A stretch of DNA of 32,480 nucleotides from Gemmatimonadaceae bacterium (lineage in GTDB: Bacteria > Gemmatimonadota > Gemmatimonadetes > Gemmatimonadales > Gemmatimonadaceae): contig JAICOJ010000030.1 in the NCBI GenBank assembly GCA_025930755.1, positions 1 through 32,480 of the forward strand. Reading direction: 5' to 3'. The position numbers and the translations under genes are program-made. Below the pieces are notes generated by a model. That model was not told where the DNA came from. It was given only the letters and a program-made list of their open reading frames with translations, and did not search any database. Positions 439 through 18,492 of the stretch are shown piece after piece; position 1 is the first letter of the stretch; the number at the start of each line of letters is the position of its first letter.

Positions 439-2346
439 ATGGACCTCACCCGCTACGCCGACCTCTTCCCCACCGAGAGCCGAGAGCACCTTTCGGCGAT
501 CAACCACCTGCTGCTGGAGCTGGAGCGCGACCCAACGGCTGCGGAGCCGTTGAGCGCGATCTTCCGCGCCGTCCACACGGTGAAGGGGATGAGCGCGACG
601 ATGGGGTACGAGGCGGTTGCGACACTGACGCACGAGCTCGAAACCGTGCTCGACTCCGTGCGACGCGGGGAGCGGAAGATCACGCCGACGGTCATGGACG
701 CCCTGTTCGAGGCGGCCGATGTGCTCGAGACGTCGGTGGAGCAGGCGGTCCGCGGACAGGATGCGACCGCGGACGCCGCGCCGGTGGTCGAGCGCCTGCG
801 CGCGATGGGCCGCATGAGCGGGGAATTCCCCGCGGTGACCAGCATTCCTTCCAGCGCTTCTCCAGCGCCTGCAGCGCCTCCAGTGCCTGCAGCGCCTGCA
901 GCGCCTGCAGCGCCTTCGCAGCTCCTCATCCGCATCCGGCTCGCGGCCAACGTTCCGCTGCGCGGTGTGCGCGCCTTCGTGGTGGTGAGGCGCGCCGAAT
1001 CGTTAGGGCGTGTGGTGGAGGTCGTCCCTCCGGTGGAGGCCCTCCAGGCGGAGCAGTTCGAGCGTGAGTTCGCCATCCGTCTCGAGACCGAGATGCCGCC
1101 CGGCGACGTTGCAACCGCGCTCCGTGCGGCCGGCGATGTCGATCGCGTCGACATCGACGATCTCAAGGCGCGCGCGGCAGCGCAGGCCGCGGAATCGGGA
1201 CGCGCGCGCTCGTCGCGGAACGTCCGCATCGATCTTCGACGGCTCGATGCGCTGATGAACCTCATCGGCGAGCTCGTGATCACCCGCGGCCGCCTCGTTC
1301 AGCTCGCGATTACCCGCGATGATCCCGCGCTCACCGAGGCGGTCACCGAGGCGTCGCGGCTCGTGTCCGATTTGCAGGATCAGATCATGGCCAGCCGCAT
1401 GGTGCCGGTGTGGCAGGTCTTCGACCGCTTCCCGCGACTCGTGCGCGATTCGGCGCGTTCCCTCGGCAAGCAGATCGAGTTCACGATCGAAGGGAAGGAG
1501 ATCGAGCTCGACCGCTCCATGCTCGACGAGATCGGCGATCCCGTCGTTCACCTGCTGCGCAACGCGATCGACCACGGATTCGAGTCGGCCACGGAGCGGG
1601 TGGCGGCGGGGAAGCCGCCGACGGGGCGGCTCGTGTTGTCCGCGGCGCGCGAGCGCTCGTCGATCACCATACGCGTGAGCGATGACGGCCGGGGGATCGA
1701 TCGGGATCGCGTGCTCGCCAAGGCACGGCACCTTGGCCTCGTCGACACGGGACGCACCGAGCTCAGCGATGACGACCTCATTCGCCTCATTTCGCGGCCG
1801 GGCTTCTCGACTGCCGAGCGCGTCACGGACATCTCGGGCAGGGGCGTCGGCATCGACGTCGTGCACGCCCGTATCCGCTCCCTGGGCGGCTCGGTGGAGA
1901 TTCGCTCCATTCCCGGGAAGGGAACGACGGTGACGCTCAGGCTGCCGCTCACGCTGGCGATTCTGCGCGCGCTGCTCGTTCGCGTCGATGGCGACACGTT
2001 CGCGGTGCCGATGACGCACGTGAACGAGACGGTGGAGCTCGAGGGTGCCGCGCTCAAATCGGTGAAGGGGCACGAAGTGCTCATGCTCCGGGACGACGTT
2101 CTTCCGCTGGTGCGCTTCCGCTCGCTGCTTGGCCTCGCCGCCGACGGCGCGCGGATGCCGCAGGTGATCGTGCTCGAAGTCGGCGAGCGTCGGGCAGGAC
2201 TCGTCGTCGACGAGCTGGCGGGACAGCAGGACATCGTGGTGAAGCAGTTCGACGCCGTTCGAAATGCAGCCGCGCTGTTCAGCGGCGCGACGATCCTGGG
2301 CGATGGGGCGCCCGCGCTGATCGTGGACGTGGGCAGCCTTCTGTAG
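439..2346 (+). CDS. cheA: Chemotaxis histidine kinase CheA
   Basis: A 635-residue CheA, the autophosphorylating kinase of a chemosensory array that passes phosphate to CheY and CheB. Domains in order: Hpt (P1), residues 1-125, with phospho-accepting His46 in RAVHTVKG; an Ala/Pro linker, about 137-160; a P2-like domain, about 160-243; the P3 dimerisation helices, about 258-340, with MASRMVP; the HATPase P4 with N box LLRNAIDHGFE (372-382), G1 box DDGRGI (415-420) and the GFSTAERVTDISGRGVG region (455-471); and a CheW-like P5, about 505-635. All catalytic boxes look intact and the length is normal for the family. The start at 439 gives a complete Hpt helix, although the base sequence before it, the right arm of a hairpin, has no evident ribosome-binding site. 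cheC follows 10 bases downstream. Confidence 0.97.
   Translation: MDLTRYADLFPTESREHLSAINHLLLELERDPTAAEPLSAIFRAVHTVKGMSATMGYEAVATLTHELETVLDSVRRGERKITPTVMDALFEAADVLETSVEQAVRGQDATADAAPVVERLRAMGRMSGEFPAVTSIPSSASPAPAAPPVPAAPAAPAAPSQLLIRIRLAANVPLRGVRAFVVVRRAESLGRVVEVVPPVEALQAEQFEREFAIRLETEMPPGDVATALRAAGDVDRVDIDDLKARAAAQAAESGRARSSRNVRIDLRRLDALMNLIGELVITRGRLVQLAITRDDPALTEAVTEASRLVSDLQDQIMASRMVPVWQVFDRFPRLVRDSARSLGKQIEFTIEGKEIELDRSMLDEIGDPVVHLLRNAIDHGFESATERVAAGKPPTGRLVLSAARERSSITIRVSDDGRGIDRDRVLAKARHLGLVDTGRTELSDDDLIRLISRPGFSTAERVTDISGRGVGIDVVHARIRSLGGSVEIRSIPGKGTTVTLRLPLTLAILRALLVRVDGDTFAVPMTHVNETVELEGAALKSVKGHEVLMLRDDVLPLVRFRSLLGLAADGARMPQVIVLEVGERRAGLVVDELAGQQDIVVKQFDAVRNAAALFSGATILGDGAPALIVDVGSLL
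862..917 (+). repeat. 9-base tandem repeat encoding the CheA P1-P2 linker
   Basis: Imperfect tandem copies of the unit GCGCCTGCA (with CCTCCA variants) encode a run of Ala-Ala-Pro in the linker between Hpt and the P2-like domain. The 9-base length keeps frame, so copy number could vary without breaking the kinase. A very similar unit, GCGCCTCCA, recurs in cheW at about 15280-15350. Confidence 0.75.
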
Positions 2347-2356
2347 AGGAGAGGGA

Positions 2357-2977
2357 ATGAACGACATCAAGGAGTTGAAGGCCGTCCAGCTCGATGCGCT
2401 GCGCGAGGTCGCCAACATCGGCGCCGGGCATGCGGCGACCGCGCTTTCGCAAATGACCGGAAGCACGATCATGATCAGCGTGCCGACGATCAACATCGCC
2501 TCGCTCGAGGATGTGCCGACGCAGATCAGCGAGCCGGAGGAACCGATCGCCGCGGTGCTCATGCACATGGTGGGCGACCTGACCGGCCGCACGCTGCTCG
2601 TCTTCCCGCGGCCGACGGCAATGCGGCTGGCCGAGCTGATGCTGCGACGGCCGGCCGGCTCCTCGACGGAGATGGGGCCGCTCGAGCAGTCGGCGATCAA
2701 GGAGGCGGGCAACATTCTCAGCGGCGCCTACATGAACGCGCTCAGCGAGTTCATGGGGCTCATGCTGCTGCCGTCCCCGCCCAGCCTCGCCGTCGACATG
2801 TCCTCGGCGATCCTGTCGACGGCGTTCCTGCAGTTCGGAACCGATCGCGATCATGTGTTCTACGTCGAAAGCCAGTTTTTCCTCCAGGAGCAGAACGAGC
2901 ACCTCCGCGGCTTCTTCCTCCTGCTGCCCGACCTCGCGTCGCTGCAAGCCATCCTTCGCGCGGTACGACTGGCCTGA
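2357..2977 (+). CDS. cheC: CheY-P phosphatase CheC
   Basis: A 206-residue CheC. It removes phosphate from CheY-P and in the known systems partners with CheD. Both signature D/S-x3-E-x2-N active sites are present: Asp13/Glu17/Asn20 in LDALREVANIGAG and Ser112/Glu116/Asn119 in QSAIKEAGNILSG, the same pseudo-symmetric layout as Thermotoga CheC. A good ribosome-binding site (AGGAGAGGG, 2347-2355) precedes the ATG. The presence of cheD about 10.5 kb downstream in the same operon fits a CheC-CheD feedback pair. The protein lacks the FliM/FliY switch-binding tail. Identity is firm. Confidence 0.95.
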   Translation: MNDIKELKAVQLDALREVANIGAGHAATALSQMTGSTIMISVPTINIASLEDVPTQISEPEEPIAAVLMHMVGDLTGRTLLVFPRPTAMRLAELMLRRPAGSSTEMGPLEQSAIKEAGNILSGAYMNALSEFMGLMLLPSPPSLAVDMSSAILSTAFLQFGTDRDHVFYVESQFFLQEQNEHLRGFFLLLPDLASLQAILRAVRLA

Positions 2978-2980: not shown

Positions 2981-5686
2981 ATGACCCCCGTCCTCACATC
3001 CGAGCGCGACCGCGAGGTCCTGCGCTCGTTTGCTCGACGGATCGATCCGTCGGATGCGGGGGCGCATAACAACCTCGGGGTTCTCTATTTCAACAAGGGA
3101 CTCTACGAGGAAGCGGTGACCGCGTTCACGCGCGCGCTCGAGCTCGACTCGAAGATGCAGGTGGCGCAGCGCAACCTCGAGATCGCGTACTTCAACACCG
3201 GCTACTACGATCGTCGCGTCTCCGAGCTGACGGAGCGACTGCGCCAGCGGCCCGACGACCGCGACGCGCGCTGGGAGCTCGGGCGCGCATACGCGTCCCT
3301 CGGCAACGTGACCGAGGCGGTGCGCGAGTTCAGCGCGCTCCTGCTGCACCACCCCGAGGATCTCGGCGCGATCGTGCAGCTCGGGCTGGCCGAGAAGGCC
3401 AGCGGAGATCTCGAGAAGGCGCAGCAGTGGTTCGAGCGCGCGCTCGCGCTCGACCCCAACAGCTCCGTGGTGAACTTCTACCTCGGCGAGGTCATCTACA
3501 ACCGCGGCCTCAACGAGGAGGCGCTCGCGGCGCTGAAGCGCGCGCTCGAGCTCAATCCCGACAATCCCGACGCGCACTACCTCATGGGATTCGTCCTCGG
3601 GGACATGGGCCGCCACGAGGATGCCCGCGCCGCGCAGAAAAAGGCGATCGCGCTGAATCCCACCCTGTCGCGCGCCCAGGCGAACCTCTCGCTGGAGCGC
3701 TACAAGGACGCACGCTACGAGTCGCTGTTGCCCGACCAGCGCCGCCGCGCGGCGGAACGGCTCGAGGTCGCGGAAGAGAAGACGCTCGCGCACTTCAACC
3801 TCGGGCTCGCGTTCCGTCAGAAGGCGTACTACGCCGAGGCATTGCGGGAGTATCGCATCGCCCTCGAGCGGGGCGAGGACCGCCTCCTCGTCATGCAGGC
3901 CATGGCCGAGGTGCACCTTCTCCGGAAGGACACCAATGCCGCGTACGAGCTGTACGAGCAGCTGGTCGCCGAGCAACCGGGCAGCCCCAAGCTCTGGGCC
4001 GAGCGCGGTGTCGCGTTGCACCAGGAAGGGCGGTACGCCGACGCGGCGAAGAGCTATCGAACGGCCCTCGAGGCGGATCCGCGCTACGCGATCGCGCACA
4101 ACAATCTGGGCGTCGCGCTGTATCACGGCGGCCAGACCGAGGAGGCGATCGACGCCTTCCGCGCCGCACTCGGGATCGAAGCCGCCTTCACCAAGGCGTG
4201 GCTGAACCTCGCGCTCCTGCTCTTCAAGGGAAAGCGGCTGCAACTGTCACTCGAGGCGTATCGCCAGGTGCTCGCCGTGGAGCCCGAGCAGCCGGTCGCC
4301 TGGAATGGCATCGGTCTCGTGCTGGCCGAGCTCAAGAAGTACGAGGACGCGCGCAACGCGTTCGGGCGCGCGATCCAGGCGCGCCCCGACTACGCCGAAG
4401 CGCACTATAACCTCAGCTTCGCGCTCTCCAACCTCGGCGACTTCGAGGGCGCGTTGCGAGAGACGAAGCGCGCGCTGGAGATCGACCCGTATTACGTCGC
4501 GCAGAAGTTCGAGCTGGCGATCGATCTCGAGTACGAGGATCCCGATCTCTCGATCGTTCCCGACCTCGGCGGCGAGAAGCGACAGGACGAAAGCGTCGAG
4601 GAGTTCGCGTTCGATGCGCGTGTCCTGGACTCGCTCTTCACGTCGCTGAAGCCTGCGCCGGCGGAGACGACCGCCCCCGGAGAAGCAAATCCGTACGCGA
4701 TGGCCGTCGATTACCTCACCAAGGGGCTGCTCGAGCGTGCGTCCGCGGAGATCAGCCGCGCGATGACCCGCGGTGGAGACCGCAGCGAAGGGCTCGCCCT
4801 GCTCGGCGATGTTTTCACACGCCAGGGCCTGTTCGGGGAAGCGCTCGAGCGCTACCGCGAAGCGCGGGCCCACAATGGTCATGTGCCGACGCGGGCGCTG
4901 CTGGGCGAGACGCGCGCGCTCCTCGTGCTCGGCCGAGCTGCCGAGGCGCGCGTCGTCGCCGAGGAGCTGCTCGCGGTCGATGGAACGAGCGTGGAGGGGC
5001 TGCTGCTCGCCGCGTCGGCGCGCGCGGACGAGGGTGACCCGGCCGGCGCGCTGGAGCATCTCGACAAGGCACGCCGTCTCGCGCCGGCACGCCCGGATGT
5101 CCTGCAGAAGATCGGCGACGTCGCGCGCGCGGTGGGAGACGTCGAAGGGGCGATCGCGGCCTATCGTGACGCCATCGATCTCGATCGTGATTTCGCCGTG
5201 GTGCGATTCGAGCTGGCGCGGCTCGTCGCCGAGCGCGGGCAGGCGAAGGAGGCGGAGGAGCATTTGCTCGCGGCGCTCGAGGCCGTCCCCACATACGTGG
5301 AGGCGACGCTCGAGCTCGCCGCCGTGCGCCGGAACTTCGGCCGCGCGAAGGAAGCGCTCACCCCGCTGGTCGATCTGCTGAAGCGCGACCCCTACAACCT
5401 CGATGCTCTGCTCGCCCTCGGTGAGACCCTGCTCACGCTGGAGCGGCGGAGCGATGCACGCACGGCCTTCGAGCGGATCGTGCGGTTCGATCCCGATCAC
5501 GCGGGCGCGCTGTATTACCAGGGCGTGCTCCTCGCCGAACAGCACCGGTATCGCGACGCGATCGCGAAGTGGCACCGCGTGGTGGACGTCGAGCCCGCCA
5601 GCGAATTCGCGCGCCGCGCCCGGCGCGATGCGCGTACCGCGGCTGACCTGCAGCGGATCTTCCGCTCGCGTGAGGAGGTCGCCTAG
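2981..5686 (+). CDS. Large two-block TPR protein
   Basis: A 901-residue protein made almost wholly of tetratricopeptide repeats. The first block, about residues 25-510, has typical units such as AHNNLGVLYFNKGLYEEAV and AHYNLSFALSNLGDFEGAL. A non-repeat acidic linker, about 515-568, follows (with PDLSIVPDLGGEK), then a second block from about 570 to 895. There is no signal peptide or membrane segment, so it should be cytoplasmic. TPR arrays form protein-binding superhelices, and its place between cheC and a PATAN-TPR gene suggests a scaffold or adaptor for this signalling complex. No enzymatic domain is visible. The start is 3 bases after the cheC stop, which argues for coupled translation. 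The specific partner is unknown. Confidence 0.9.
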   Translation: MTPVLTSERDREVLRSFARRIDPSDAGAHNNLGVLYFNKGLYEEAVTAFTRALELDSKMQVAQRNLEIAYFNTGYYDRRVSELTERLRQRPDDRDARWELGRAYASLGNVTEAVREFSALLLHHPEDLGAIVQLGLAEKASGDLEKAQQWFERALALDPNSSVVNFYLGEVIYNRGLNEEALAALKRALELNPDNPDAHYLMGFVLGDMGRHEDARAAQKKAIALNPTLSRAQANLSLERYKDARYESLLPDQRRRAAERLEVAEEKTLAHFNLGLAFRQKAYYAEALREYRIALERGEDRLLVMQAMAEVHLLRKDTNAAYELYEQLVAEQPGSPKLWAERGVALHQEGRYADAAKSYRTALEADPRYAIAHNNLGVALYHGGQTEEAIDAFRAALGIEAAFTKAWLNLALLLFKGKRLQLSLEAYRQVLAVEPEQPVAWNGIGLVLAELKKYEDARNAFGRAIQARPDYAEAHYNLSFALSNLGDFEGALRETKRALEIDPYYVAQKFELAIDLEYEDPDLSIVPDLGGEKRQDESVEEFAFDARVLDSLFTSLKPAPAETTAPGEANPYAMAVDYLTKGLLERASAEISRAMTRGGDRSEGLALLGDVFTRQGLFGEALERYREARAHNGHVPTRALLGETRALLVLGRAAEARVVAEELLAVDGTSVEGLLLAASARADEGDPAGALEHLDKARRLAPARPDVLQKIGDVARAVGDVEGAIAAYRDAIDLDRDFAVVRFELARLVAERGQAKEAEEHLLAALEAVPTYVEATLELAAVRRNFGRAKEALTPLVDLLKRDPYNLDALLALGETLLTLERRSDARTAFERIVRFDPDHAGALYYQGVLLAEQHRYRDAIAKWHRVVDVEPASEFARRARRDARTAADLQRIFRSREEVA

Positions 5687-5688
5687 CG

Positions 5689-6834
5689 ATGCCGATCGAA
5701 GGACCGCTGCGCGAGCTTGGCATCCACGACGTCTTCCAGCTACTCGACCTGAGCCGGAAGACGGGCGCGTTGAGCGTCGTCTCGGCGCTGCGCGACAACC
5801 AGGGTACCGTCTTCTTCGACGGGGGCGCCGTCGTGTTCGCGTCCATTCGCAGCAATCCGCACCGCCTGGGCGACATGCTCGTGCGAGCGGGGAAGATCAC
5901 GGAGGCCGATCTCGATCGGGCGCGCGCGCAGCAGCAGAAGGGCGACGTGCGGCGGCTGGGCGAGATTCTGCTGGAGATCGGGGCCGTGACGCCGAAGGAG
6001 CTCGAGCGGCACGTGCGCCTGCACATCGAAGAGGTGGTCTTCGAGCTGATGTCGTGGCGCGAGGGGTACTTCTCGTTCGAGGAACGCCCGATCTCCGATG
6101 CGCCCAGTGAAGCGTCGGTGCGCATCTCGACCGAATCGCTTCTCATGGAAGGCGCGCGCCGAATCGACGAGTGGTCGCGCATCGAGGGGAAGGTGCCGCA
6201 CGTCGGCGTGGTGCCGGTGCTCGCGCCCTTGCGCGCGGACCACCCATCACTCCTCGACCTCCTGCCCAACGAGTGGGAAGTGCTGGCGGAAATCGATGGG
6301 GCCAAGGACCTGCGCGAGATCGCGCTGCGCCTGGGCCAGAGCGATTTCGACATCGCCAAGATCGTCTACGGGATGGTCACCACCGGCGTCATCGAGCTGC
6401 GCGACCCGCGGCTGGTGACGCCCCGTCACGTCGGCGCGCCGGAGGATGCCCGGCCTCACGTCGAGCGTGCGCGCACCTTGCTCGAGTCGGGCAACGTCGA
6501 GGGGGCGCTCGCGGCGGCGCGTCAGGCGATCTCGGCCGACCCGCAGATGGCCGAGGCGCGGGTCGCCATGGCTCGTGCGCTCAACAAGGCGGGTCGCCTC
6601 AACGATGCGGCCGAGGAGCTCCGGAGAGCGCTGCAGCTCGATCCGCTTCACCCCGACACGCACGTCGAGATGGGTTACTGCGCGGCTGCGCGCGGTGACC
6701 TCGGCGAAGCGATGGCGGCGTGGGAACGCTATCTCCGCATGCTACCGAACAGTGGCGACGCCGCTCGGGTGCGCGAGGCATTGGCGAGCGCATCTGCGCT
6801 CCATGGATTGTTGACGGGGCGCGCGCATGGCTGA
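5689..6834 (+). CDS. PATAN (DUF4388)-TPR protein, copy 1
   Basis: A 381-residue cytoplasmic protein. The N-terminal 100 residues match the DUF4388/PATAN fold: opening MPIEGPLRELGIHDVFQLL, then KTGALSV and a GTVFFDGGAVVFA hairpin. A helical LGDMLVRAGKITEADLD segment resembles the GspE/MshE N-terminal fold, and a winged-helix-like middle lies around residues 195-250. About 265-365 are TPR units. PATAN proteins are known in cyanobacterial and myxobacterial response-regulator contexts, where they mediate protein contacts controlling motility and polarity. It begins 2 bases after the preceding TPR gene and overlaps the next by 8. A paralogue sits at 11068-12687; the two frame the Roadblock-GTPase-AAA+ block. 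The exact role is inference. Confidence 0.88.
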   Translation: MPIEGPLRELGIHDVFQLLDLSRKTGALSVVSALRDNQGTVFFDGGAVVFASIRSNPHRLGDMLVRAGKITEADLDRARAQQQKGDVRRLGEILLEIGAVTPKELERHVRLHIEEVVFELMSWREGYFSFEERPISDAPSEASVRISTESLLMEGARRIDEWSRIEGKVPHVGVVPVLAPLRADHPSLLDLLPNEWEVLAEIDGAKDLREIALRLGQSDFDIAKIVYGMVTTGVIELRDPRLVTPRHVGAPEDARPHVERARTLLESGNVEGALAAARQAISADPQMAEARVAMARALNKAGRLNDAAEELRRALQLDPLHPDTHVEMGYCAAARGDLGEAMAAWERYLRMLPNSGDAARVREALASASALHGLLTGRAHG

Positions 6835-7696
6835 CGACATTCGCCGCCTGAGCGAAGCACTGGCCCGCGATCCCGCGAGCCCCGTTTACCTGCAGCTCGG
6901 TGAAGCGCTGCGGAAGACCGGGCAGCTCGATCTCGCGCTCAAGGTCGCGGTGCGCGGCCTCGAGCGGCACCCGCACGACGCCGACTCGCATGACCTCCTC
7001 GCCCGCATCGCCGTCGACCGGGGGGAGCTCGAGCGCGCCTTCGACGAGTGGGACATGGTCCGTCGGATAGCGCCCGCGCACCTCGGCGCCCGCAAGGGGA
7101 TGGGCTACGTCCTGTTCAAGCAGGGACGGTACGTCGAAGCGCAGGCGTACCTGAGCGAGGCCCATGAGCTCGACGGCGAAGACGAGACGGTCGCGACGGC
7201 GCTCGCAATGGTGAGGGTGAAACTGCGGGAAGCGGGGGCACAGGCTCCTCAGGGTCCTCAGGGTCCTCGACAGGTGCACCCCGAGGACACTGAGGACACT
7301 GCGGACCCCGCAGACCGTGACGACCCTGAGCACCTCAGGCTCTTCGACCAGATCAACGAAGGCGGCGAGCACACGGCGCTGCTGCTCGACGCCACCGGGC
7401 TCGTCATGGCGGGGACGTACGTGACGCAGGACGGCCGGGACGTCGCGCAGGAAGTGGGTGCCGAGCTCAGCGGCGTCAGCGATGAAGCGCGGCGGGCGAT
7501 GCGACATCTCGAGCTCGGTGACTGGTCGTCGCTCACCGTGGAAACCGACGCGGCGGTGGTCGCCATGGCGCCGATGCGCGATGACGCCCTGCTGCTCGTG
7601 GCGGCCACGAAGGCCATGCCGCTCGGGCTCGTGCATCGCGTTCTGGACCGATGCGTCGAGCGGGCCGGCGCCTGGCTGACGAAGGGGGGCGGGTGA
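6827..7696 (+). CDS. TPR-Roadblock/LC7 fusion protein
   Basis: A 289-residue protein. Residues 1-125 hold TPR-like helices (VYLQLGEALRKTGQLDLALK and similar), 130-167 are a low-complexity hydrophilic linker, and about 168-285 form a Roadblock/LC7 domain (HTALLLDATGLVMAGTYV start, AVVAMAPMRDDALLLVAA strand pair). Roadblock proteins such as MglB act as homodimeric regulators, including GTPase-activating proteins, of MglA-type GTPases, and one is encoded four genes downstream. The linker is encoded by an inverted pair of 9-base repeats (7245-7306) and reads GPQGPQ followed by EDTEDT. The gene overlaps both neighbours, by 8 bases upstream and by GTGA downstream. The domain call is confident; being the GAP is inference. 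Confidence 0.87.
   Translation: MADDIRRLSEALARDPASPVYLQLGEALRKTGQLDLALKVAVRGLERHPHDADSHDLLARIAVDRGELERAFDEWDMVRRIAPAHLGARKGMGYVLFKQGRYVEAQAYLSEAHELDGEDETVATALAMVRVKLREAGAQAPQGPQGPRQVHPEDTEDTADPADRDDPEHLRLFDQINEGGEHTALLLDATGLVMAGTYVTQDGRDVAQEVGAELSGVSDEARRAMRHLELGDWSSLTVETDAAVVAMAPMRDDALLLVAATKAMPLGLVHRVLDRCVERAGAWLTKGGG
7245..7306. repeat. Inverted repeat of 9-base units inside the TPR-Roadblock gene
   Basis: The left arm (7245-7269) is built from the unit CAGGGTCCT. The right arm (7282-7306) is its reverse complement at 21 of 25 positions, with a 12-base loop. It lies wholly within the interdomain linker and keeps frame. The same unit makes the larger palindrome at 18128-18247. Confidence 0.8.
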
Positions 7697-8043
7697 AGAC
7701 CAACCTCACGCCCATCATTTCGGCCCTCACCCGCCAGCGCGGAGTGCGCGGCAGCCTGCTCGTCGATGAGACGGACGGTGTCATCATCGACGCGACGCTG
7801 CACGTCGGCATGAAGGGACCCGCCTTCGCTGCTCTCGCCGCGTCGCTCTATCGCAAAGCGCGGTTGTCGGCTGATGCGGCCGGACTCGGCGGCGTCACAT
7901 TCCTGCGGCTGCGGGCCACCGAAGGACACGTCTGTGCCGCCGGAAAGAACGAGATGGTGCTCGTCATCGTCGCCGACGCGCGCGCGAACATCGGTCTCAT
8001 CCGGATGGAGATGCTCAAGGCGCTGGAGCGGCTCGTCATATGA
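7693..8043 (+). CDS. Roadblock/LC7 domain protein (MglB-like)
   Basis: A compact 116-residue single Roadblock/LC7 domain: a long N-terminal helix (NLTPIISALTRQRGVRGSLL), VDETDGVIIDATLHVG, the central helix around PAFAALAASLYRKAR, and a C-terminal helix (IGLIRMEMLKALERL). The start is set at GTG 7693 rather than the ATG at 7651: a G-rich AAGGGGGG site lies just upstream, GTG overlaps the preceding TGA as GTGA, and the extra upstream residues are an arginine-rich shadow of the preceding gene. The next gene overlaps by ATGA. It is the minimal Roadblock protein of the cluster and a reasonable candidate for an MglB-type partner of the GTPase at 8543. Function is inferred from family and neighbours. 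Confidence 0.88.
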   Translation: MKTNLTPIISALTRQRGVRGSLLVDETDGVIIDATLHVGMKGPAFAALAASLYRKARLSADAAGLGGVTFLRLRATEGHVCAAGKNEMVLVIVADARANIGLIRMEMLKALERLVI

Positions 8044-8537
8044 TCAGCGTCGCCGAGCCCTGGGTCGAGGCGCCGTTGAAGCGCTTCGTCGACGATTCGC
8101 GCGTCACGTTCGCGCTGCTCATCTACCCGAGCGGGCAGGTACTCGGACAGAGCGGGTTCTCGCGTGCGGTGGATGTGATGTCGGCAGCGGCGCTCGCGGC
8201 CGGCATCTACGCGACGGTCCGCGAGCTCGGTCGCACGCTCGACGGAAGGGGCTTTCGCGACGTGTTTCACGCCGGCGCGAAGCGCCGGCTCTACCTGGCG
8301 GAGGCGGCCACGCCGCGCGGGACGTGCCTCTTCCTCACGGTGTTCGATGAGCAGAGCTCGCTCGGGCTCGTCCAACTATACTTCGAGGAGCTGCGTACCA
8401 GCCTCGCGCAGATGAAGGTGCAGGTCCCCGATGCCGCCCCCATGCTCGACGAGAACTTCGAGGTCGAGCTGAATCGCAATCTCGCCATGCTGTTCGGGCG
8501 CGCGCCCGGACGCCGCAGCATCACTCCCACGTCCTGA
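8040..8537 (+). CDS. Roadblock/LC7-like protein with C-terminal extension
   Basis: A 165-residue cytoplasmic protein. Residues 1-125 resemble a Roadblock/LC7 fold (FALLIYPSGQVLGQSGF; SAAALAAGIYATVRELG; LYLAEAATPRGTCLFLTVF; LGLVQLYFEELRTSL). A tail of about 35 residues ends in ENFEVELNRNLAMLFGRAPG. It overlaps the previous gene by ATGA and is followed after 5 bases by the MglA-type GTPase. The Roadblock call is weaker than for its two neighbours, but three such genes in a row beside a GTPase make it likely. The conserved tail could be the docking part that differs between the three. Confidence 0.8.
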   Translation: MISVAEPWVEAPLKRFVDDSRVTFALLIYPSGQVLGQSGFSRAVDVMSAAALAAGIYATVRELGRTLDGRGFRDVFHAGAKRRLYLAEAATPRGTCLFLTVFDEQSSLGLVQLYFEELRTSLAQMKVQVPDAAPMLDENFEVELNRNLAMLFGRAPGRRSITPTS

Positions 8538-8542: not shown

Positions 8543-9151
8543 GTGTCTCTCGTCAACTACGCGTCCCGCGAGATCACGTGCAAGATCGTCTACTACGGCC
8601 CCGGGCGGTCGGGGAAGACGACGAACTTGCATTACGTGTACGGGCAGGTGCCTGACGAGCGGAAGGGGAAGATGGTGTCGCTCGCCACGCAAACCGATCG
8701 CACCCTGTTCTTCGACTTCCTTCCGCTCGATCTCGGCACGATTTCCGGATTCACGACCCGGTTGCAGCTCTACACGGTCCCCGGCCAGGTCTATTACCAG
8801 GCGACGCGAAAGCTCGTGTTACAGGGCGCCGATGGGGTGGTGTTCGTGGCCGACAGCCAGTCGCGTCAGCTCGAGGAAAACATCGAAAGCCTCCAGGACC
8901 TGCACGCGAACCTCGGCAATCAAGGCATGGACCCACGCACCGTCCCGCTCGTGCTGCAATACAACAAGCAGGACTTGCCGCGTGACATGATCATGTCCGT
9001 GGACGATCTCGATGAAGTGCTCAACTTTCGCGGCGTCCCGCGTTTTGCCGCCGACGCGCTGCACGGGATTGGAGTGTTCGAGACGCTGCGCGGCATCGCC
9101 GAGCTCGTGCTCAAGCGGCTGGCATCGCCGGCCGAGGCGGGGAGCAGGTAG
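8543..9151 (+). CDS. mglA: MglA-type Ras-like small GTPase
   Basis: A 202-residue bacterial small GTPase that closely follows Myxococcus MglA, the switch controlling front-rear polarity. The P-loop is GPGRSGKTT (19-27); TDRTLFFDFLP carries Arg53, the intrinsic arginine finger position known in MglA; the MglA-diagnostic TVPGQ (78-82) replaces the Ras DxxG; the base-recognition motif is NKQD (141-144). The start is GTG 8543, giving the family N-terminus SLVNYASREITCKIVYYGPG. Three Roadblock proteins immediately upstream supply possible regulators. In Myxococcus the GTP form binds effectors such as motility proteins and is coupled to the Frz chemosensory pathway; here chemosensory genes share its operon, so a similar link is likely. 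Confidence 0.94.
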   Translation: MSLVNYASREITCKIVYYGPGRSGKTTNLHYVYGQVPDERKGKMVSLATQTDRTLFFDFLPLDLGTISGFTTRLQLYTVPGQVYYQATRKLVLQGADGVVFVADSQSRQLEENIESLQDLHANLGNQGMDPRTVPLVLQYNKQDLPRDMIMSVDDLDEVLNFRGVPRFAADALHGIGVFETLRGIAELVLKRLASPAEAGSR

Positions 9152-9154: not shown

Positions 9155-11068
9155 ATGGCGCTCGACGTCCGCTCTCGCTTCGACACCTTCGTCGTCGGCG
9201 CGGCCAATCGTCTGGCCGTGTCGGCGGCCCGTGCGGTGGCGCAGTCGCCAGGCGCGGCGTACAACCCGCTGTTCATCTACGCGGCGTCGGGCCTCGGCAA
9301 GACGCACTTGCTCTCCGCCATCGGGCAGCTCGCGAAGCAGCTCCAGCCCGATCTGCAGGTGGAGTACATCACCACCGACGAGCTCGTCGAGCATCTGCAC
9401 CAGGCGGTGACCCGCGGGGAAACGGAAGCGTTCCGTCAGCGGTTCGCCGAGCTCGACGTACTGCTGCTGGACGACGTGCAATTCCTCACCGGCCGGCAGG
9501 AGACGCAGAGCGAGCTCCTTCGCCTGTTCAACGTGCTCCAGCGCAGCGGGAAGCAGATCGTGCTCACGAGTGATCGGCCGCCGGCCGAGATCGCCGATCT
9601 CGACGACCGGTTGATGACGCGCTTCTCGGGAGGGCTGCTCGTCGACATGGGCGCTCCCGACTACGAGACGCGCGTCGCGATCCTCCGCCGCCGGTGCGAT
9701 GAGCGCGACGTGACCTTCCCGCCCGGGGTCGTCGAGGAGGTAGCGCGGGTCGTCTTCGCGAACGTGCGCGAGATGCACGGCGCGATCAATCGACTGATCG
9801 CGTTTCAGACGCTCGGGGAAGGCGACGTGACCGTCGAGAGCATCCAGGGGCTCCTCGGCGACCGTGGGAATGGCAGCGGGCCACAGCGTCTGGCGCCCAA
9901 GAGCGGTGAGTACGAGAGCTTCCTCTCCGGTCTCGCGGTCGCCGTCGCGCAGCACGTCGATGCGCGCCGCGTGAAGCTCGTCGAGTCGACCGCAGAGTGG
10001 CGAACGCAGGGCTACCGCACCGCCGCGCTCGAGCGCGCGCTGCAAAGCTCCGACACCGCCGATCCCGACGCGCTGCTCAAGGAGTTCGAGCAGAAGGTTG
10101 CGCGGCTCCGCGCCCTGGAGCAGGAGATCGTTGCGCTCGACCCGACTCAGCGCGGCTCCGTGCAATTCCTCGATCCGGAGGCCATCGACGAGCTCGAGCG
10201 GCTCGCGGACACGCTGCGCGCGGAGTCGGCGCCGCCACCGCCGCCGGACTCGTCGCTCGTACGCGCGGAGTTCGAAGTCGGTCCGTCGAACCAGCTCGCG
10301 GTGCACGCGGCCGACGCGATCGTCGAGGAGCCGGGCCGCCGCTACAACCCGCTGGTCGTCCACGGCGGGCCCGGCGTCGGCAAGACCCACCTGCTCCACG
10401 CGATCGGGAACGAGCTCGCTGCCGCCAGCGGCGGAGCCATGACCGTCGCGTGCGTGAGCGCCAGCGATTTCGTGAATGAGCTGATCGCGGCGCTGCAGGA
10501 CAGCGCGATCGAGACCTGGCGGGGGCGGTACCGCCGCGTCGACGCGCTCCTCATCGATCAAATCGAAATGTTTGCGGGCACCGAGCGCACACAGGACGAG
10601 TTCTTTCACCTCTTCAATGCCCTGATGGAAACGGGGAAGCAGGTGGTCCTCACATCCTCGCGCGCCCCCCGCACCCTCACCGAGATGGACGAGCGGCTGC
10701 GGTCGCGCTTCGAGGGCGGGCTCGTGGTGGAGATTCAGCCACCGGACCGGCTGCTTCGCGAGAAGCTCATCGCCCGCGCGCTCGCCGCCGCCGGGGTCGA
10801 GCCGTCCTCCGACGTGCTTCATGCCGCGGCCGGTCTCGAGATGCCGACCGCCCGCGACGTGCTCCGTGTCGGCGAGCGCCTCGCCGAGATCGCGACGAAG
10901 GCCAACGGACGCCTCACGAGCGCCGACGTCTCGCGCGTGACGTCGGTTCGTCGCTCGACGCCGGTGCATCGCGCCACGCCGTCGGGGGACACGCACTTCG
11001 GGGACCGCGAGAAGACGGTGTGGGACTGGCCCGACCTGTCCGGGCGCATCATTGAGGATCTCCGCTGA
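9155..11068 (+). CDS. Tandem DnaA/Hda-type AAA+ ATPase lacking a DNA-binding domain
   Basis: A 637-residue protein with two DnaA-family AAA+ modules. Module 1 (about 8-235) has Walker A ASGLGKTH (Lys49), Walker B VLLLDDVQFLTG (Asp106/Asp107), sensor-1 VLTSDRPP and arginine-finger helix LMTRF. A helical spacer, about 250-360, has a Pro run at its end. Module 2 (about 366-600) has Walker A GGPGVGKTH (Lys410), Walker B LLIDQIEMFAG with Gln469 in place of the second acid, VLTSSRAP in place of the usual SSDRPP, and LRSRFEGG. There is no DnaA domain IV helix-turn-helix, so it is not the replication initiator; Hda also lacks that domain. Module 2 may bind but not hydrolyse ATP. It starts 3 bases after mglA and shares one base with the next gene. 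Its job in signalling is unknown. Confidence 0.88.
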   Translation: MALDVRSRFDTFVVGAANRLAVSAARAVAQSPGAAYNPLFIYAASGLGKTHLLSAIGQLAKQLQPDLQVEYITTDELVEHLHQAVTRGETEAFRQRFAELDVLLLDDVQFLTGRQETQSELLRLFNVLQRSGKQIVLTSDRPPAEIADLDDRLMTRFSGGLLVDMGAPDYETRVAILRRRCDERDVTFPPGVVEEVARVVFANVREMHGAINRLIAFQTLGEGDVTVESIQGLLGDRGNGSGPQRLAPKSGEYESFLSGLAVAVAQHVDARRVKLVESTAEWRTQGYRTAALERALQSSDTADPDALLKEFEQKVARLRALEQEIVALDPTQRGSVQFLDPEAIDELERLADTLRAESAPPPPPDSSLVRAEFEVGPSNQLAVHAADAIVEEPGRRYNPLVVHGGPGVGKTHLLHAIGNELAAASGGAMTVACVSASDFVNELIAALQDSAIETWRGRYRRVDALLIDQIEMFAGTERTQDEFFHLFNALMETGKQVVLTSSRAPRTLTEMDERLRSRFEGGLVVEIQPPDRLLREKLIARALAAAGVEPSSDVLHAAAGLEMPTARDVLRVGERLAEIATKANGRLTSADVSRVTSVRRSTPVHRATPSGDTHFGDREKTVWDWPDLSGRIIEDLR

Positions 11069-12687
11069 TGGCGATCAAGGGGAGTCTCCGCGAAGCCAGC
11101 CTTCCGGACGTGCTTCAGCTGCTCGCGATGGGGCAGAAGACGGGATGCCTGAGCGTGGCCGATCGAAGCAGCTTCGGCACCGTGTACTTCTCGCGCGGAC
11201 GCATTTCGTACGCGTCGATCGTGAATCGTCGCGATCGCCTCGGTGACATCCTCGTCAAGAACGGGCTCATCACCCAGCAGGAGCTCGACTCGGCGATTCA
11301 GGCGCAGACGCGGCAGCGCGACAAGCGACTCGGGGAGATCCTCATCGAGCAGAAGATCCTCACGCGCGAGGAGCTGCACCGGTACATCCGGCTGCAGATC
11401 GAAGAGGCGGTGTATTTCCTCTTCACCTGGACGCAGGGCACGTTCAGCTTCGAGGCGGACGTGCTGCCTGACGAGCGTGACTTTCTGGTCTCGATCAACC
11501 CGGAGTCGCTGCTCCTCGAGGGCGCGCGGCGCGTCGACGAGTGGAGCCTCATCGAGAAGAAGATTCCGAGCTTCGACATCATCTTCGAGCTCGATCGCAC
11601 CAAGCTCGCCGGCAGCGATGCCGAGCTCACGATGGAGCAGGAGCAGCTCGTTCCGCTCGTCGATGGGCGGCGCGACGTCGCCGCCCTCGTCGATGAGTCG
11701 GGCCTCGGCGAGTTCGAGGTGGGCAAGGCCTTGTACGGCCTCGCGACCGCTGGCTTCCTGCATCGCATCGGGAAGTCGAAGGCTTCGGACGCCGTGGTGC
11801 GCGAGGCGCGGGTCGAGGAGCACCGCAACCTGGGCATCGCGTTCTACAAGACGGGCATGTACGAGGAAGCGACGCGGGAGTTCCGCCGCGTCGCCGAGCT
11901 CCGCCCGAACGACGGGCAGGCACTCTTCTTCATGGCGCTCGTCCACCTGCGTAACGAGCGGCTGCCGCAGGCCGAGGAGTCGTTGCGGGAGGCGGCGAGC
12001 CAGCCGAACGCCCCGGCGGCGGTCTTCCACAATCTCGCTTTCGTACTGGAGCGCACGGGTCGCCTCGACGACGCGCAGATCGCGCTCGAGGAAGCGGTCA
12101 CTCGGGGAGGCGGCTCGGACCCGCGGGTGCAGATTGCGCTCGGCATCGTGGCCCTGCGGCGCGGCCAGCTCGACGCCGGCGACGCCCTGCTCGCGGCGGC
12201 GCGCCCGTTGTTCGGCAAGCGCAAACCAACGGCGCCCTGGTTCCACTACGCCGCGTTGGCCGCGGCCCTCGGCGGCGACTTCGGTCGCGCGGCCGCGCTG
12301 GTCGACGAGGCGCTTACGGTGCACCCGCACGTCGCCGCGCTGCACAACCTCAAGGCGACGTTGCTGGAGCGTGCGGGCAAGTATCGTCAGGCGATCGAGG
12401 CGGCGGAAGCCGGGCTTGGCAATGACAGCTCGCTGCCCCACCTGCACAAGAACCTCGGTGACTGCCACTATCGCGCCGGGCAGTACGATCGCGCCCTTGA
12501 GGCATACGAGCGGGCCGCACGGCTCGCTCCGGGCCAGGGGCACGACGTGTGGTTCAAGATGGGCAACATTCGGTATCGCACGCACGAGCGGGAAGCGGCA
12601 CTCGAGTGCTGGGAGAAGGCGCTCGAGCTCGATCCCGAGAACGCGCTCATCCGCACGAATCTCGACCTCGTCCGGACGGTGATGTGA
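11068..12687 (+). CDS. PATAN (DUF4388)-TPR protein, copy 2
   Basis: A 539-residue paralogue of the protein at 5689-6834. It shares the opening (MAIKGSLREASLPDVLQLL), KTGCLSV, GTVYFSRGRISYASI, the RLGDILVKNGLITQQELD helical segment and the SLLLEGARRVDEWS stretch around residues 150-165. The C-terminal 285 residues are TPR units (for example HRNLGIAFYKTGMYEEATRE and LHKNLGDCHYRAGQYDRALE), more than in copy 1. It is cytoplasmic with no membrane segment. The ATG shares one base with the stop of the AAA+ gene. Copies 1 and 2 probably arose by duplication around the Roadblock-GTPase-AAA+ block, and could give two sets of protein contacts to one complex. Confidence 0.88.
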   Translation: MAIKGSLREASLPDVLQLLAMGQKTGCLSVADRSSFGTVYFSRGRISYASIVNRRDRLGDILVKNGLITQQELDSAIQAQTRQRDKRLGEILIEQKILTREELHRYIRLQIEEAVYFLFTWTQGTFSFEADVLPDERDFLVSINPESLLLEGARRVDEWSLIEKKIPSFDIIFELDRTKLAGSDAELTMEQEQLVPLVDGRRDVAALVDESGLGEFEVGKALYGLATAGFLHRIGKSKASDAVVREARVEEHRNLGIAFYKTGMYEEATREFRRVAELRPNDGQALFFMALVHLRNERLPQAEESLREAASQPNAPAAVFHNLAFVLERTGRLDDAQIALEEAVTRGGGSDPRVQIALGIVALRRGQLDAGDALLAAARPLFGKRKPTAPWFHYAALAAALGGDFGRAAALVDEALTVHPHVAALHNLKATLLERAGKYRQAIEAAEAGLGNDSSLPHLHKNLGDCHYRAGQYDRALEAYERAARLAPGQGHDVWFKMGNIRYRTHEREAALECWEKALELDPENALIRTNLDLVRTVM

Positions 12688-13508
12688 GCGTCCAGCAGCA
12701 GCCCGCCGACGCGGAGTTCGCCGCGCTCACCGAGAAGATCTCGCGGGAGCGCGGCTTCGGCTGCGCGAGCTACAAGGAAAAGTGTCTGCGGCGCCGCATC
12801 GCGGTGCGGATGCGCGCTCGCGGCGTGCACACGTATCGCGACTACGCGAAGATCCTCGATGGCGATGCGCGAGAGTACGAGCTGCTGCTCGACGCGCTGA
12901 CGATCAACGTCACCAAGCTCTTTCGAAACTGGGAGACGTTCGCCGCCATCGCCGACGACGTGATTCCCGCGCTCTGGCCGGCGCCCGATGAACACGTGCG
13001 GTGCTGGAGCGCCGGGTGCGCGTCGGGAGAGGAGCCGTACTCGATCGCGATCCTCATGCACCGCGAAGCGATGCAGCGCAAGGATGAGAAGGCGCTCTCT
13101 CGTATCACCATCCTCGGGACCGACATCGACCGGCTGAGTCTCAAGGCGGCGGAGCGAGGCGCCTTCGGCGAGGATGCGTTCGCCGACACCCCGCCGGCCA
13201 TTCGGCGTCGCTACTTCACGCCGAGGCCACCGCACTCGGTGGATCCCCGGGTGAAGGCGATGGTGCAATTCGAGCGACGTGATCTGCTGCACGAGCCGAC
13301 CCCGTCGGGCGGGCTCGATCTCATCACCTGTCGCAACGTCATCATTTACTTCGACCGCGTCTCGCAGGAGCTGCTCTTCCAGCGGTTCTTCGACGCGCTC
13401 GTTCCGGGCGGATTCCTCGTGCTCGGCAAGGTGGAGACGCTCCTCGGTCCCACCCGGAACCTGTTCGTGCCGGTCAATCCGCGCGAACGCGTCTTCCGCA
13501 AGCCATGA
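12684..13508 (+). CDS. cheR: Chemoreceptor glutamate methyltransferase CheR
   Basis: A 274-residue SAM-dependent O-methyltransferase that methylates receptor glutamates. The N-terminal helical domain contains YKEKCLRRRIAVRMRARG and LTINVTKLFRN, in place of the usual TxFFR. The SAM-binding motif is CWSAGCASGEEPYSIA (107-122); GTDIDRLSLKAAERGAF and DLITCRNVIIYFD complete the fold. I place the start at GTG 12684, which overlaps the preceding TGA (GTGA). The ATG at 12549 would add 45 residues that merely shadow the upstream TPR gene. There is no TPR tail, unlike some CheR. The next gene overlaps by ATGA. Presence of cheR and cheB implies an adapting receptor encoded elsewhere. Confidence 0.95.
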   Translation: MSVQQQPADAEFAALTEKISRERGFGCASYKEKCLRRRIAVRMRARGVHTYRDYAKILDGDAREYELLLDALTINVTKLFRNWETFAAIADDVIPALWPAPDEHVRCWSAGCASGEEPYSIAILMHREAMQRKDEKALSRITILGTDIDRLSLKAAERGAFGEDAFADTPPAIRRRYFTPRPPHSVDPRVKAMVQFERRDLLHEPTPSGGLDLITCRNVIIYFDRVSQELLFQRFFDALVPGGFLVLGKVETLLGPTRNLFVPVNPRERVFRKP

Positions 13509-13996
13509 GCGCGCCGACCGAGATTCGCGTGAAGGTCGCCGACTTCGCGGTGGCGAACGGGGGCACGCTCCTCGTCACGGTCGGCCTGGGGTCATGCGTG
13601 GCGATCGCCCTCCACGATCCGGACGCGCGCATCGGCGGGCTCGCGCACGTGCTGCTGCCGAGCACCGGCATGTCGCAGGACCGGTCCAATCGCGCCAAGT
13701 TTCCGTCGACGGCGGTACCGCTTCTCTGCGAGCGCATGCAGGCGTTAGGTGCGCGTCCGGGCCGACTGCGCGCGAAGATCGTCGGTGGCGCAAGCATGTT
13801 TACCTCGCTTCTTTCGGCGACTGGTCTCCAGATCGGGGAGCGCAACGTCGTCGCGACGCGTGCCGCGCTCGAGCACGCGGGCATTCCGATCGTCGGGCAG
13901 GAAGTTGGCGGCGACTACGGCCGCAGCGTGTACTTCGACGTGCGGGATGGTCGTCTCACCGTGAAGTCGCTGAAGGCCGGGCATGTCATCCTCTAG
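13505..13996 (+). CDS. cheD: Chemoreceptor glutamine deamidase CheD
   Basis: A 163-residue CheD, which deamidates receptor glutamines and in Bacillus and Thermotoga binds and stimulates CheC. Catalytic residues are in the expected spacing: Thr25 and Cys31 in VTVGLGSCVAIAL and His48 in GGLAHVLLPS. The region FPSTAVPLL matches the conserved substrate-site stretch, and KIVGGASMF is typical of the family. It overlaps cheR by ATGA and cheB by 14 bases. Together with cheC in the same operon it supports the three-branch (methylation, deamidation, CheC/CheD) adaptation scheme. Identity is firm. Confidence 0.95.
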   Translation: MSAPTEIRVKVADFAVANGGTLLVTVGLGSCVAIALHDPDARIGGLAHVLLPSTGMSQDRSNRAKFPSTAVPLLCERMQALGARPGRLRAKIVGGASMFTSLLSATGLQIGERNVVATRAALEHAGIPIVGQEVGGDYGRSVYFDVRDGRLTVKSLKAGHVIL

Positions 13997-15065
13997 GCTG
14001 CCCACCGTCCTCGTCGTGGACGACAGCGCATTCATGCGCAAGCTCGTCTCGGAGATGATCGATGCCTCCGGGGAGTTCCGCGTGATTGGCACGGCGCGCA
14101 ACGGCCTCGAAGCGCTGAAGAAGATCCATGCCCTGGATCCCGATCTGGTGACGCTGGACATCGAGATGCCTGAGCTCGATGGCATCGGAGCGCTCGGATA
14201 CATCATGAGCGAGATGCCGCGGCCCGTCATCATGCTGAGCGGCGCGGCATCGGAGTCTGGGCGCGATCCGGCGATTCGCGCCCTCGAGCTCGGGGCGGTG
14301 GACTTCGTCAAGAAACCGGGCGGACCGATCTCACTGGATCTCGATCGTGTCCGCGACCGGTTGCTCGACGCGCTCCGCGCTTCCCGTGAAGTGAACCTGC
14401 GCGGGATGCCCATGCTGGCACGGCGGCCCGAGCCGGCGATGGCTGGACGCGCGATCGCCGGCGGCGGCTCGTGGGCGACGCGCGCCGTGGCGATCGCCGC
14501 GTCCACCGGGGGGCCGCGCGCACTGGCCGACCTCATTCCCGCGCTTCGCCCCGACCTCGATGCGGCCGTGCTCATCGTGCAGCACATGCCGGCGGGCTTT
14601 ACCAAGAGCCTGGCCGACCGGCTCGACCTTCACTCGCGCCTCAGCGTGGCCGAGGCATGCGATGGCGAGCGCGTCGTGCACAACCGGGTGTATCTCGCCC
14701 CGGGTGGACAGCACATGCGCGTGCGCGTGCAGGGCGGCATGCCGGTAATCTCGCTCGACAGCTCGCCCCCGGTCTGGGGAGTTCGCCCCTCGGCGGATCC
14801 ATTGTTCAAGTCCGTCGCCGACGTGTTCGGCGCGGCGGCGATTGGCGTCGTGCTCACGGGGATGGGCCGCGATGGCGCGGAAGGGATGCGCGCCATTCAC
14901 GAAGCGGGCGGCCTCGGGGTCGCTCAGGACAAGGCGACGTCGATCATCTATGGAATGCCGCACGCAGCGCTCCTGGCTGGAGGCATCGACCAGGTGCTAC
15001 CACTTCAGGCCATTGCCGGTGCGGTGAGCGATTTGTTGACCGTCCGGGGAAGCGGGGTAATGTGA
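13983..15065 (+). CDS. cheB: Chemotaxis protein-glutamate methylesterase CheB
   Basis: A 360-residue two-domain CheB. The receiver, about 5-125, has Asp59 as phospho-acceptor in LVTLDIEMPELDG. A linker precedes the methylesterase domain, about 165-350, with Ser174 in IAASTGG, His201 in VQHMPAGF and Asp297 in TGMGRDGAEGM as the catalytic triad. The length and layout are normal for the family. The ATG at 13983 lies inside the cheD 3' end. CheA~P would activate it to remove methyl groups (or deamidate) on receptors, opposing CheR. Confidence 0.96.
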   Translation: MSSSRLPTVLVVDDSAFMRKLVSEMIDASGEFRVIGTARNGLEALKKIHALDPDLVTLDIEMPELDGIGALGYIMSEMPRPVIMLSGAASESGRDPAIRALELGAVDFVKKPGGPISLDLDRVRDRLLDALRASREVNLRGMPMLARRPEPAMAGRAIAGGGSWATRAVAIAASTGGPRALADLIPALRPDLDAAVLIVQHMPAGFTKSLADRLDLHSRLSVAEACDGERVVHNRVYLAPGGQHMRVRVQGGMPVISLDSSPPVWGVRPSADPLFKSVADVFGAAAIGVVLTGMGRDGAEGMRAIHEAGGLGVAQDKATSIIYGMPHAALLAGGIDQVLPLQAIAGAVSDLLTVRGSGVM

Positions 15066-15166
15066 CGCGCGCTCTTCGTGAACTGTCCGTTCAGACAGAG
15101 GCGCTAGAGGCGCTGGACGTAACCTCTGTGGGGCTCGTCGAGCTCCAATTGAGTACCCAACGATGA
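15062..15166 (+). CDS. Possible 34-codon coupling ORF between cheB and cheW
   Basis: A GTG-initiated frame of 34 codons fills the cheB-cheW gap exactly. Its GTG overlaps the cheB stop as GTGA, and its TGA overlaps the cheW ATG as ATGA, the same junctions used between real genes of this operon. It would encode a short peptide starting VTRALRELSVQTEALEAL with no recognisable domain. Its EALEALD part is encoded by an inverted copy of the 9-base unit that also fills the cheW linker, so it may be a by-product of a repeat. It could serve mainly to carry ribosomes to cheW. Evidence is only the geometry of the overlaps. Confidence 0.4.
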   Translation: MTRALRELSVQTEALEALDVTSVGLVELQLSTQR

Positions 15167-15350
15167 CGAGGAAGAAGAAGCCGGCTCGATCGCAGGCCTC
15201 ACGCCGCGCGCCTCGCAAGCGGGGCGCGACGGCTGCGCGCACGAGTGAGGTCCCGGTGTCAGCGCCCACCGCGCCTTCAGCGCTTTCAGCGCCTCCAGCG
15301 CCTCCAGCGCCTCCAGCGCCTCCAGCGCCTCCAGCGCCTTCAGCAGCTCC
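15097..15350. repeat. 9-base unit array in cheW with an inverted partial copy upstream
   Basis: About five to six tandem units of GCGCCTCCA (with TTCA variants) occupy roughly 15280-15350 and encode Ala-Pro-Pro repeats. At 15097-15117 the reverse complement of about two units is present (GAGGCGCTAGAGGCGCTGGA). The facing copies bracket the cheW start region, the same arrangement seen at three other places in the window though with a longer loop. Confidence 0.6.
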
Positions 15351-15855
15351 TCTGCAACTCGAGGAGCCGGCCGGCCCTCCGCGACGTCCACTGCGCGAAG
15401 CGATCGCCGCGCGTGAGGGGCTGTCGGACACGCTGGTCTTCCGCATCGGCGAGGAGCGGTTCGCGATCGACCTCGCGGCCGTGGAGGAGGCCATCGAGCT
15501 CCCCTCGGTTCACCATCTCCCCGAAATGCCCGACCACCTGTTAGGCGTGTTCGAGCTGCGCCAGCGCCTCGTTCCGATCTACTCGCCCGAGCGCGTGCTC
15601 CGCGTCGCCCTCGGACGCGATGCCTCGGCGGTGCTCGTCCTGCGCGCCAGCGAGAAGCGCCTGGGCCTCGCCGTCGACGACGTCGAGGACGTCCTCACGA
15701 TCGATGGCGCCGCGGTTCGACGCGCACCCATTCCCGACAACGATGACAACGTGCTCCTCGGGGTCATTCGTCGCGGTGTCGATCTTCTCGCCCTCATCGA
15801 CGCCGAGTCGCTGGCGCTCGCGTGTCTGGCGGATCAGCTCACGGAGGCAGTATGA
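15163..15855 (+). CDS. cheW: CheW coupling protein with basic, Ala/Pro-rich N-terminal tail
   Basis: A 230-residue protein. The CheW fold occupies about residues 88-225 (TLVFRIGEERFAIDLAAVEEAIE; LGVFELRQRLVPIYSPERVL; LGLAVDDVEDVLTI), linking CheA to receptors. It is preceded by an unusual 85-residue tail. Residues 1-28 have 11 Lys/Arg and no acid (starting MTRKKKPARSQASRRAPRKR), followed by an Ala-Pro-Pro linker encoded by the 9-base array. Normal CheW has about 150 residues and no such tail. A histone-like basic tail could bind DNA, as reported for the N-terminal tail of the Frz receptor FrzCD in Myxococcus; this is analogy only. It overlaps the next cheW by ATGA. Confidence 0.9.
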   Translation: MTRKKKPARSQASRRAPRKRGATAARTSEVPVSAPTAPSALSAPPAPPAPPAPPAPPAPSAAPLQLEEPAGPPRRPLREAIAAREGLSDTLVFRIGEERFAIDLAAVEEAIELPSVHHLPEMPDHLLGVFELRQRLVPIYSPERVLRVALGRDASAVLVLRASEKRLGLAVDDVEDVLTIDGAAVRRAPIPDNDDNVLLGVIRRGVDLLALIDAESLALACLADQLTEAV

Positions 15856-18206: not shown

Positions 18207-18247
18207 GGACATCGAGGACCCTGAGGACCCTGAAGACCCTGAAGACC
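18128..18247. repeat. Long inverted repeat of 9-base units at the operon end
   Basis: The left arm (18128-18171) contains five units of GGTCCTCAG and encodes the Gly-Pro-Gln tail of the peptidase. The right arm (18204-18247) matches its reverse complement at 38 of 44 positions and contains the gene's TGA stop. The 32-base loop lies between. The stem could form in the mRNA and protect or end the long transcript, but there is no proper T tract after it. Confidence 0.85.
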
Positions 18248-18259
18248 TAAGTAACTTTC

Positions 18260-18288
18260 TTGACACCCTTTAGGAGCCCGGGTACACT
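18260..18288 (+). promoter_or_regulatory. Near-consensus sigma-70 promoter
   Basis: TTGACA (18260-18265) and TACACT (18283-18288) are separated by exactly 17 bases. Transcription would start near 18295-18297, right at the ATG of the small membrane-protein gene (18297). It could also supply the tRNA-Val 240 bases downstream. This is a sequence prediction only. Confidence 0.65.
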
Positions 18289-18296
18289 AAACCCCT

Positions 18297-18467: not shown

Positions 18468-18492
18468 GCGGGTCGCGCGCGGCGTCCCATCT

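Follow-up and report, generated by a model that had tools for sequence, protein, structure and literature searches.

What is a protein with two copies of the ATPase domain of DnaA doing in an operon for chemosensory signalling? The known roles of DnaA-type ATPases are in replication (DnaA, Hda and DnaC/DnaI) and in transposition (IstB). Within the window, meaning the whole 32,480-nucleotide stretch of DNA from a Gemmatimonadaceae bacterium analysed here, a tight run of genes specifies, in this order, CheA, CheC, a 901-aa TPR protein, PATAN1, three roadblock proteins, MglA, the protein in question, PATAN2, CheR, CheD and CheB, with CheW following 97 bp beyond CheB (Table 1). 'DD' is the name used here for that protein, the product of an ORF which starts 3 bp past mglA and shares 1 bp with the ORF that follows. 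Genes for an MglA GTPase, roadblock proteins and PATAN proteins stand together in this one cluster, and both PATAN1 and PATAN2 contain an MshEN insert of c-di-GMP type that scores above the NCBI cut-off. The answer argued for below, at a probability of roughly one half, is that DD would be an ATP-dependent adaptor or switch of this MglA–roadblock–PATAN–Che system, most likely one controlling type IV pili.

The three consecutive roadblock/LC7 proteins directly before mglA (6827–8537) exceed the usual complement at that place, which is a single mglB or an mglB/mglC pair. On the far side of the che genes there are in nearly all relatives TPR, peptidase-MA-like and TPR genes (16309–24676 here), leading into mraW and a penicillin-binding-protein gene of a dcw-like cluster.

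Table 1. Positions in the window of the DD gene, its parts and its operon neighbours
Feature	Coordinates	Strand	Evidence or remark
CheA and CheC	439..2977	+	
901-aa all-TPR protein and PATAN1 (DUF4388-MshEN-TPR)	2981..6834	+	
Three roadblock/LC7 proteins (TPR-Robl, Robl, Robl)	6827..8537	+	PF03259
MglA-type small GTPase	8543..9151	+	PF00025; orthologous MglA at the same place in most loci
DD gene: double DnaA-domain-III AAA+ protein, 637 aa	9155..11068	+	
Module 1, complete DnaA domain III, aa 4-236	9164..9862	+	PF00308, residue census; ATP site near-invariant
Module 1 Walker A GLGKTH, aa 46-51	9290..9307	+	Residue census; Lys in 59/59 homologues
Module 1 Walker B DD, aa 106-107	9470..9475	+	Residue census; 59/59 and 58/59
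Module 1 box-VII arginine finger R156	9620..9622	+	Residue census; 53/59
Helical spacer domain, aa ~250-358	9902..10228	+	DD-family-specific
Module 2, second DnaA domain III, aa ~371-596	10265..10942	+	PF00308
Module 2 Walker B D468-Q469	10556..10561	+	Residue census; Gln private to source genus
Module 2 arginine finger R518	10706..10708	+	Residue census; 50/52, retained where the P-loop is gone
Conserved C-terminal tail, aa 613-637	10991..11065	+	Contains EKTVWDWPDLSGRIIEDLR; W625 in 59/59
PATAN2: DUF4388/PATAN with MshEN insert and TPRs	11068..12687	+	Invariant neighbour, probable DD partner
MshEN (c-di-GMP-type) insert of PATAN2, aa 57-108	11236..11391	+	NF053729, 52.0 bits against a cut-off of 38
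CheR, CheD, CheB, CheW	12549..15855	+	

That DD is built of DnaA domains is clear from a Pfam profile search, in which PF00308 (Bac_DnaA) matches twice with a summed 368.7 bits against a gathering score of 23 (E 4.5e-111), the separate modules reaching 197.4 and 178 bits. No match to domain IV (PF08299) was returned by the same search, the C-terminus of DD being a short tail, and none to domain I, with domain III already starting at residue 4. An initial sequence-only reading of two DnaA modules joined by a helical spacer and lacking domain IV is borne out by this, as are the residues that it had picked out, DD106/107 versus DQ468/469 in Walker B and TSDR versus TSSR at sensor 1 in modules 1 and 2 respectively. 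An AlphaFold2 model has a pLDDT of 89.5 and a pTM of 0.53, so the mutual placement of the modules is not given by it. Its top PDB match is domain III of Bacillus subtilis DnaA (8bv3; rmsd 1.5 A over 233 columns, 42% identity), and the TM score of 0.95 on that target speaks for the DnaA domain-III fold. The spacer has weak matches only in Pfam, most commonly to the ABC-transporter C-terminal domain, and no significant relative in the PDB (best E 0.023).

Is DD then a DnaA? The organism has its own, encoded by a separate gene on a different contig (C87), and in a tree that took in 38 DnaA sequences, this one among them, module 1 and module 2 each form a clade of their own (support 1.0 and 0.90) apart from DnaA. 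As these clades lie apart from one another as well as from DnaA, the modules were acquired long ago and are no recent duplicate of the local dnaA. DD shares with DnaA (PF00308; 8bv3, 2hcb) the domain-III AAA+ fold, Walker A and B, sensor 1, the box-VII arginines and ~42% identity, and in module 1 also the sensor-2 Arg; it differs in having two copies per chain, no domain I or IV, a family-specific spacer and tail, and a place in a signalling operon. Its score with NCBIfam TIGR00362, 490.9 bits against a cut-off of 343.9, exceeds that cut-off because two domain-III copies are summed, the better of the two partial matches covering positions 104–338 of 437. Automatic annotation may on that account misname DD as DnaA. 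The lack of domains I and IV, together with the separate clades, rules out that DD is the replication initiator.

Kinship with Hda, which had been part of the sequence-only reading, is not supported. With the Hda profile (TIGR03420) DD reaches 160.8 bits, below the cut-off of 194.8 even with both copies summed; a clamp-binding-like motif (Q..[LMI].[FLY]) is found nowhere in DD. Hda/HdaA likewise has an AAA+ domain of DnaA type and no domain IV; unlike it, DD is closer to DnaA, double, free of that motif and set in another gene context. DnaC, DnaI and IstB, of the same AAA+ branch, have other machines and not origins as their targets; DD matches them weakly in sequence and differs in architecture and context. 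In short, DD has the DnaA AAA+ domain and qualifies neither as a DnaA initiator nor as an Hda.

A link to the replication machinery had nonetheless been envisaged, and in its developed form DD would link the replication cycle with motility signalling: its DnaA-like modules would bind to DnaA, DnaB or single-stranded DNA, and so report on initiation or titrate it. In DnaA the box-VII arginines mediate oligomerization, and since both modules keep them together with the domain-III fold, DD could conceivably enter mixed oligomers with DnaA; module 2 moreover retains the DnaA-like ERxQ(E/D)E helix (R in 47 of 52). Against such coupling stand the missing domain IV, and with it a DNA-binding domain, the missing domain I and clamp-binding-like motif, the distance in the tree from all 38 DnaA sequences including the organism's own, the loss of the modules in lineages where spacer and tail persist (see below), and a neighbourhood that holds no replication gene. 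It is judged quite improbable, and nothing found supports a replication role for DD. One argument of the same tendency was dropped, namely that loss in module 1 of a basic DnaA residue, which we take to be R245 of E. coli, proves against single-stranded DNA binding, B. subtilis DnaA having Gln at that position.

What the two ATP sites may do was approached through a residue census of 59 homologues for module 1, 52 of them with module 2; arginine-finger and sensor-2 residues were assigned by what we take to be their E. coli DnaA counterparts. In module 1, where most of the ATP site is near-invariant (Table 1), the sensor-2 Arg is present in 54 of 59. Module 2 is looser: the Lys of Walker A (GVGKTH, aa 407–412, in DD) is kept in 43 of 52, the second Walker B acid is D in 42, G in eight and Gln in two, and the sensor-1 Asp is variable over the family (25/52). 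Gln469 occurs solely in the source genus, in two sequences, and, confined as it is, does not define the DD family. In the seven loci of family f5 the whole module 2 ATP site is gone and the arginine finger is kept in all seven. This supports one putative working ATP site (module 1) with module 2 as its partner. The earlier proposal of one catalytic and one regulatory site thus survives in its general form and loses its argument from Gln; its actual basis is the near-invariant module 1 site and the f5 module 2 that lacks a P-loop and keeps its finger.

Comparison with a congener gives DD a dN/dS of 0.055 (module 1 0.037, spacer 0.072, module 2 0.064), and both DnaA modules are under strong purifying selection. 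Across the order, orthologues are ~43–56% identical over most or all of their length. That breadth and the low dN/dS make it evident that DD is not a chance ORF.

How widely is it found? All relatives among the matches listed in a search with a module-1-plus-spacer profile are from Gemmatimonadota. Of the 60 nearest genomes many carry full-length or partial DD, as do about half of a sample of 200 from across the phylum; what else matched was mostly DnaA itself. A spacer-plus-tail profile, which does match in distant Gemmatimonadota, found nothing in 80 genomes of Latescibacterota (the phylum of L069), 132 of Zixibacteriota (that of L065) or 16 single genomes outside Gemmatimonadota; an empty result of this kind is by itself weak evidence of absence. 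Homologues lie consistently in che/mglA or PATAN neighbourhoods, as a place in signalling would have it, and not mostly elsewhere: PATAN2 is directly 3' of DD in 52 of 52 loci (two of them from the same organism), and mglA directly 5' in 40 of the 51 testable.

On these counts, 52/52 against 40/51, PATAN2 is by linkage the closest functional partner of DD, ahead of MglA, with the proviso that such adjacency, taken alone, could equally reflect joint regulation or binding. Linkage has a bearing on the idea that DD acts directly on the nucleotide cycle of MglA, as an AAA+ GAP or a GEF-like co-factor. The frequent position of mglA just before DD would fit; however, the operon already has three proteins with the roadblock fold, the fold known from GAPs of MglB type, and in family f5 the DD–PATAN2 pair stands behind ileS-lspA-rluD-like genes without adjoining MglA or Che genes (L140, L149), so that PATAN2 and not MglA is kept beside DD. 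Direct action on MglA is for these reasons thought very unlikely.

More can be read from what lineages have discarded. The DnaA modules were lost several times among DD homologues, in a series that begins with two modules, continues with one-module forms in families f9 and f6 and genus g18 (L134–L137, L050, L150, L167, L168) and with spacer and tail only in two genomes (L051, L052), and ends in mini-ORFs of 66–95 aa that comprise the first spacer helix and the tail (genera g5, g7 and g31; L161–L165) and sit between mglA or cheC and PATAN2. Mini-ORFs of this size are easy to miss in annotation. A tail of the kind EKxVWxWP...EE is present at every stage, and the tail is the piece of DD kept most often, outlasting the DnaA modules. 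A separate case is L138, where an apparent deletion runs from the end of the DD spacer into the TPR part of PATAN2 and module 2, tail and PATAN domain have gone together. A further 'tail only' match (G216:C253) was set aside: it is the terminal part of one more gene of this kind, lying at a second contig edge, and not a new protein. The tail, the reductive series and the MshEN insert of PATAN2 are all additions to the sequence-only reading.

Does this series mean that the modules are a degenerating scaffold, with only the tail and first spacer helix mattering, as a small regulator of PATAN2? Repeated loss of the modules with retention of the tail, and the f5 module 2 bereft of its ATP site, would be in keeping with that. 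Decay would not give a near-invariant module 1 site in most families or a dN/dS of 0.037, and is disfavoured on that ground; we regard it as rather unlikely. That lineages with one module or none exist does mean that an ATP switch can be dispensed with. What PATAN2 lacks in the mini clade is exactly its MshEN insert, the NF053729 match being gone and the PATAN match contiguous, and because DD body and insert were lost by the same clade a functional tie between the two is pointed to; as the mini-DD clade is monophyletic, the co-loss counts as about one event.

For DD as an ATP-dependent adaptor or switch, the following steps can be proposed, with less assurance than the reading itself. The tail of DD would dock on the PATAN2 encoded next door. 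Module 1 would bind ATP in a site to which module 2 contributes its arginine finger, either from the same chain or from the next one in a DnaA-like row, and the ATP state would set an open or an assembled form of DD. The spacer and modules may pass that state to PATAN2, at its MshEN (c-di-GMP) part, or take it from there, and PATAN2 would relay the signal to the pilus motor in the way known from other PATAN regulators. DD itself would not act on DNA. Both its ATPase activity and its interaction with PATAN2 are predicted here from sequence.

Type IV pili are favoured as the output since PilT is present in the source genome (TIGR01420, 491 bits against a cut-off of 319) and FliG (PF01706) has no match there, since PATAN domains bind PilB in cyanobacteria (PMC10519157), and since MglA acts on pili in Myxococcus via the TPR protein SgmX, the two recruiting PilB (PMC11580455). 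PilT, near-universal across Gemmatimonadota, does not single out the DD operon. FliG is present in two genomes with full DD (G063, G094); among genomes with reduced DD it occurs in five of eight, and among those with DnaA modules in two of ~14, numbers too small to interpret.

Might DD act on the motor itself, loading or remodelling the PilB/PilT hexamer as DnaC/DnaI-type relatives do DnaB, with PATAN2 and MglA as targeting factors? Helicase loaders are among the DnaA-clade AAA+ proteins, DD weakly matches DnaI and IstB, PilT-family ATPases are present, and the binding of PilB by PATAN domains and its recruitment by MglA/SgmX, both just cited, would suit. Such loading is doubtful nevertheless, as the operon has no pil gene, a contact of DD with PilB lacks direct evidence, and lineages without modules still carry PilT-family ATPases.

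Comparison with known systems helps to define what is new. The MglA–SgmX–FrzS–SopA polarity network of Myxococcus xanthus likewise has MglA, roadblock and long TPR proteins and a che-type pathway; no DnaA-type protein is described for it in PMC11580455, and the DD operon differs in its PATAN-MshEN-TPR proteins and CheC/CheD. The Synechocystis regulators PixG, PilG and TaxP2 resemble PATAN2 in being PATAN proteins of type IV pilus control (PMC10519157), and linkage of PATAN genes to MglA/MglB has been described (PMC4316618). PATAN2 differs from all these in having MshEN inside PATAN, a TPR output and a constant DnaA-derived neighbour. No literature linking a DnaA-type protein with MglA, PATAN or DUF4388 was found in a search of mainly open-access papers. 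What is new, the MglA/MglB–PATAN linkage being known, is the presence of a DnaA-type AAA+ protein within an MglA/PATAN/Che system.

A broader proposal is put forward tentatively, as a possibility still well short of the main reading: early in the history of Gemmatimonadota, chemosensory and MglA control of type IV pili may have taken in an ATPase of the DnaA clade, to serve there as ATP-gated assembly switch or motor loader and tied to c-di-GMP through the MshEN of its PATAN partner. If the reading of DD is true, a protein of the DnaA family would serve cell polarity or motility, not DNA, extending the working range of the fold, and there would be a natural experiment on the DnaA ATP switch without DNA. 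DD is a direct handle on the route from MglA/Che systems to the pilus motor. The operon probably steers surface movement by pili, and in it an ancient replication module seems to have found a second use, that of a switch within a signalling complex.
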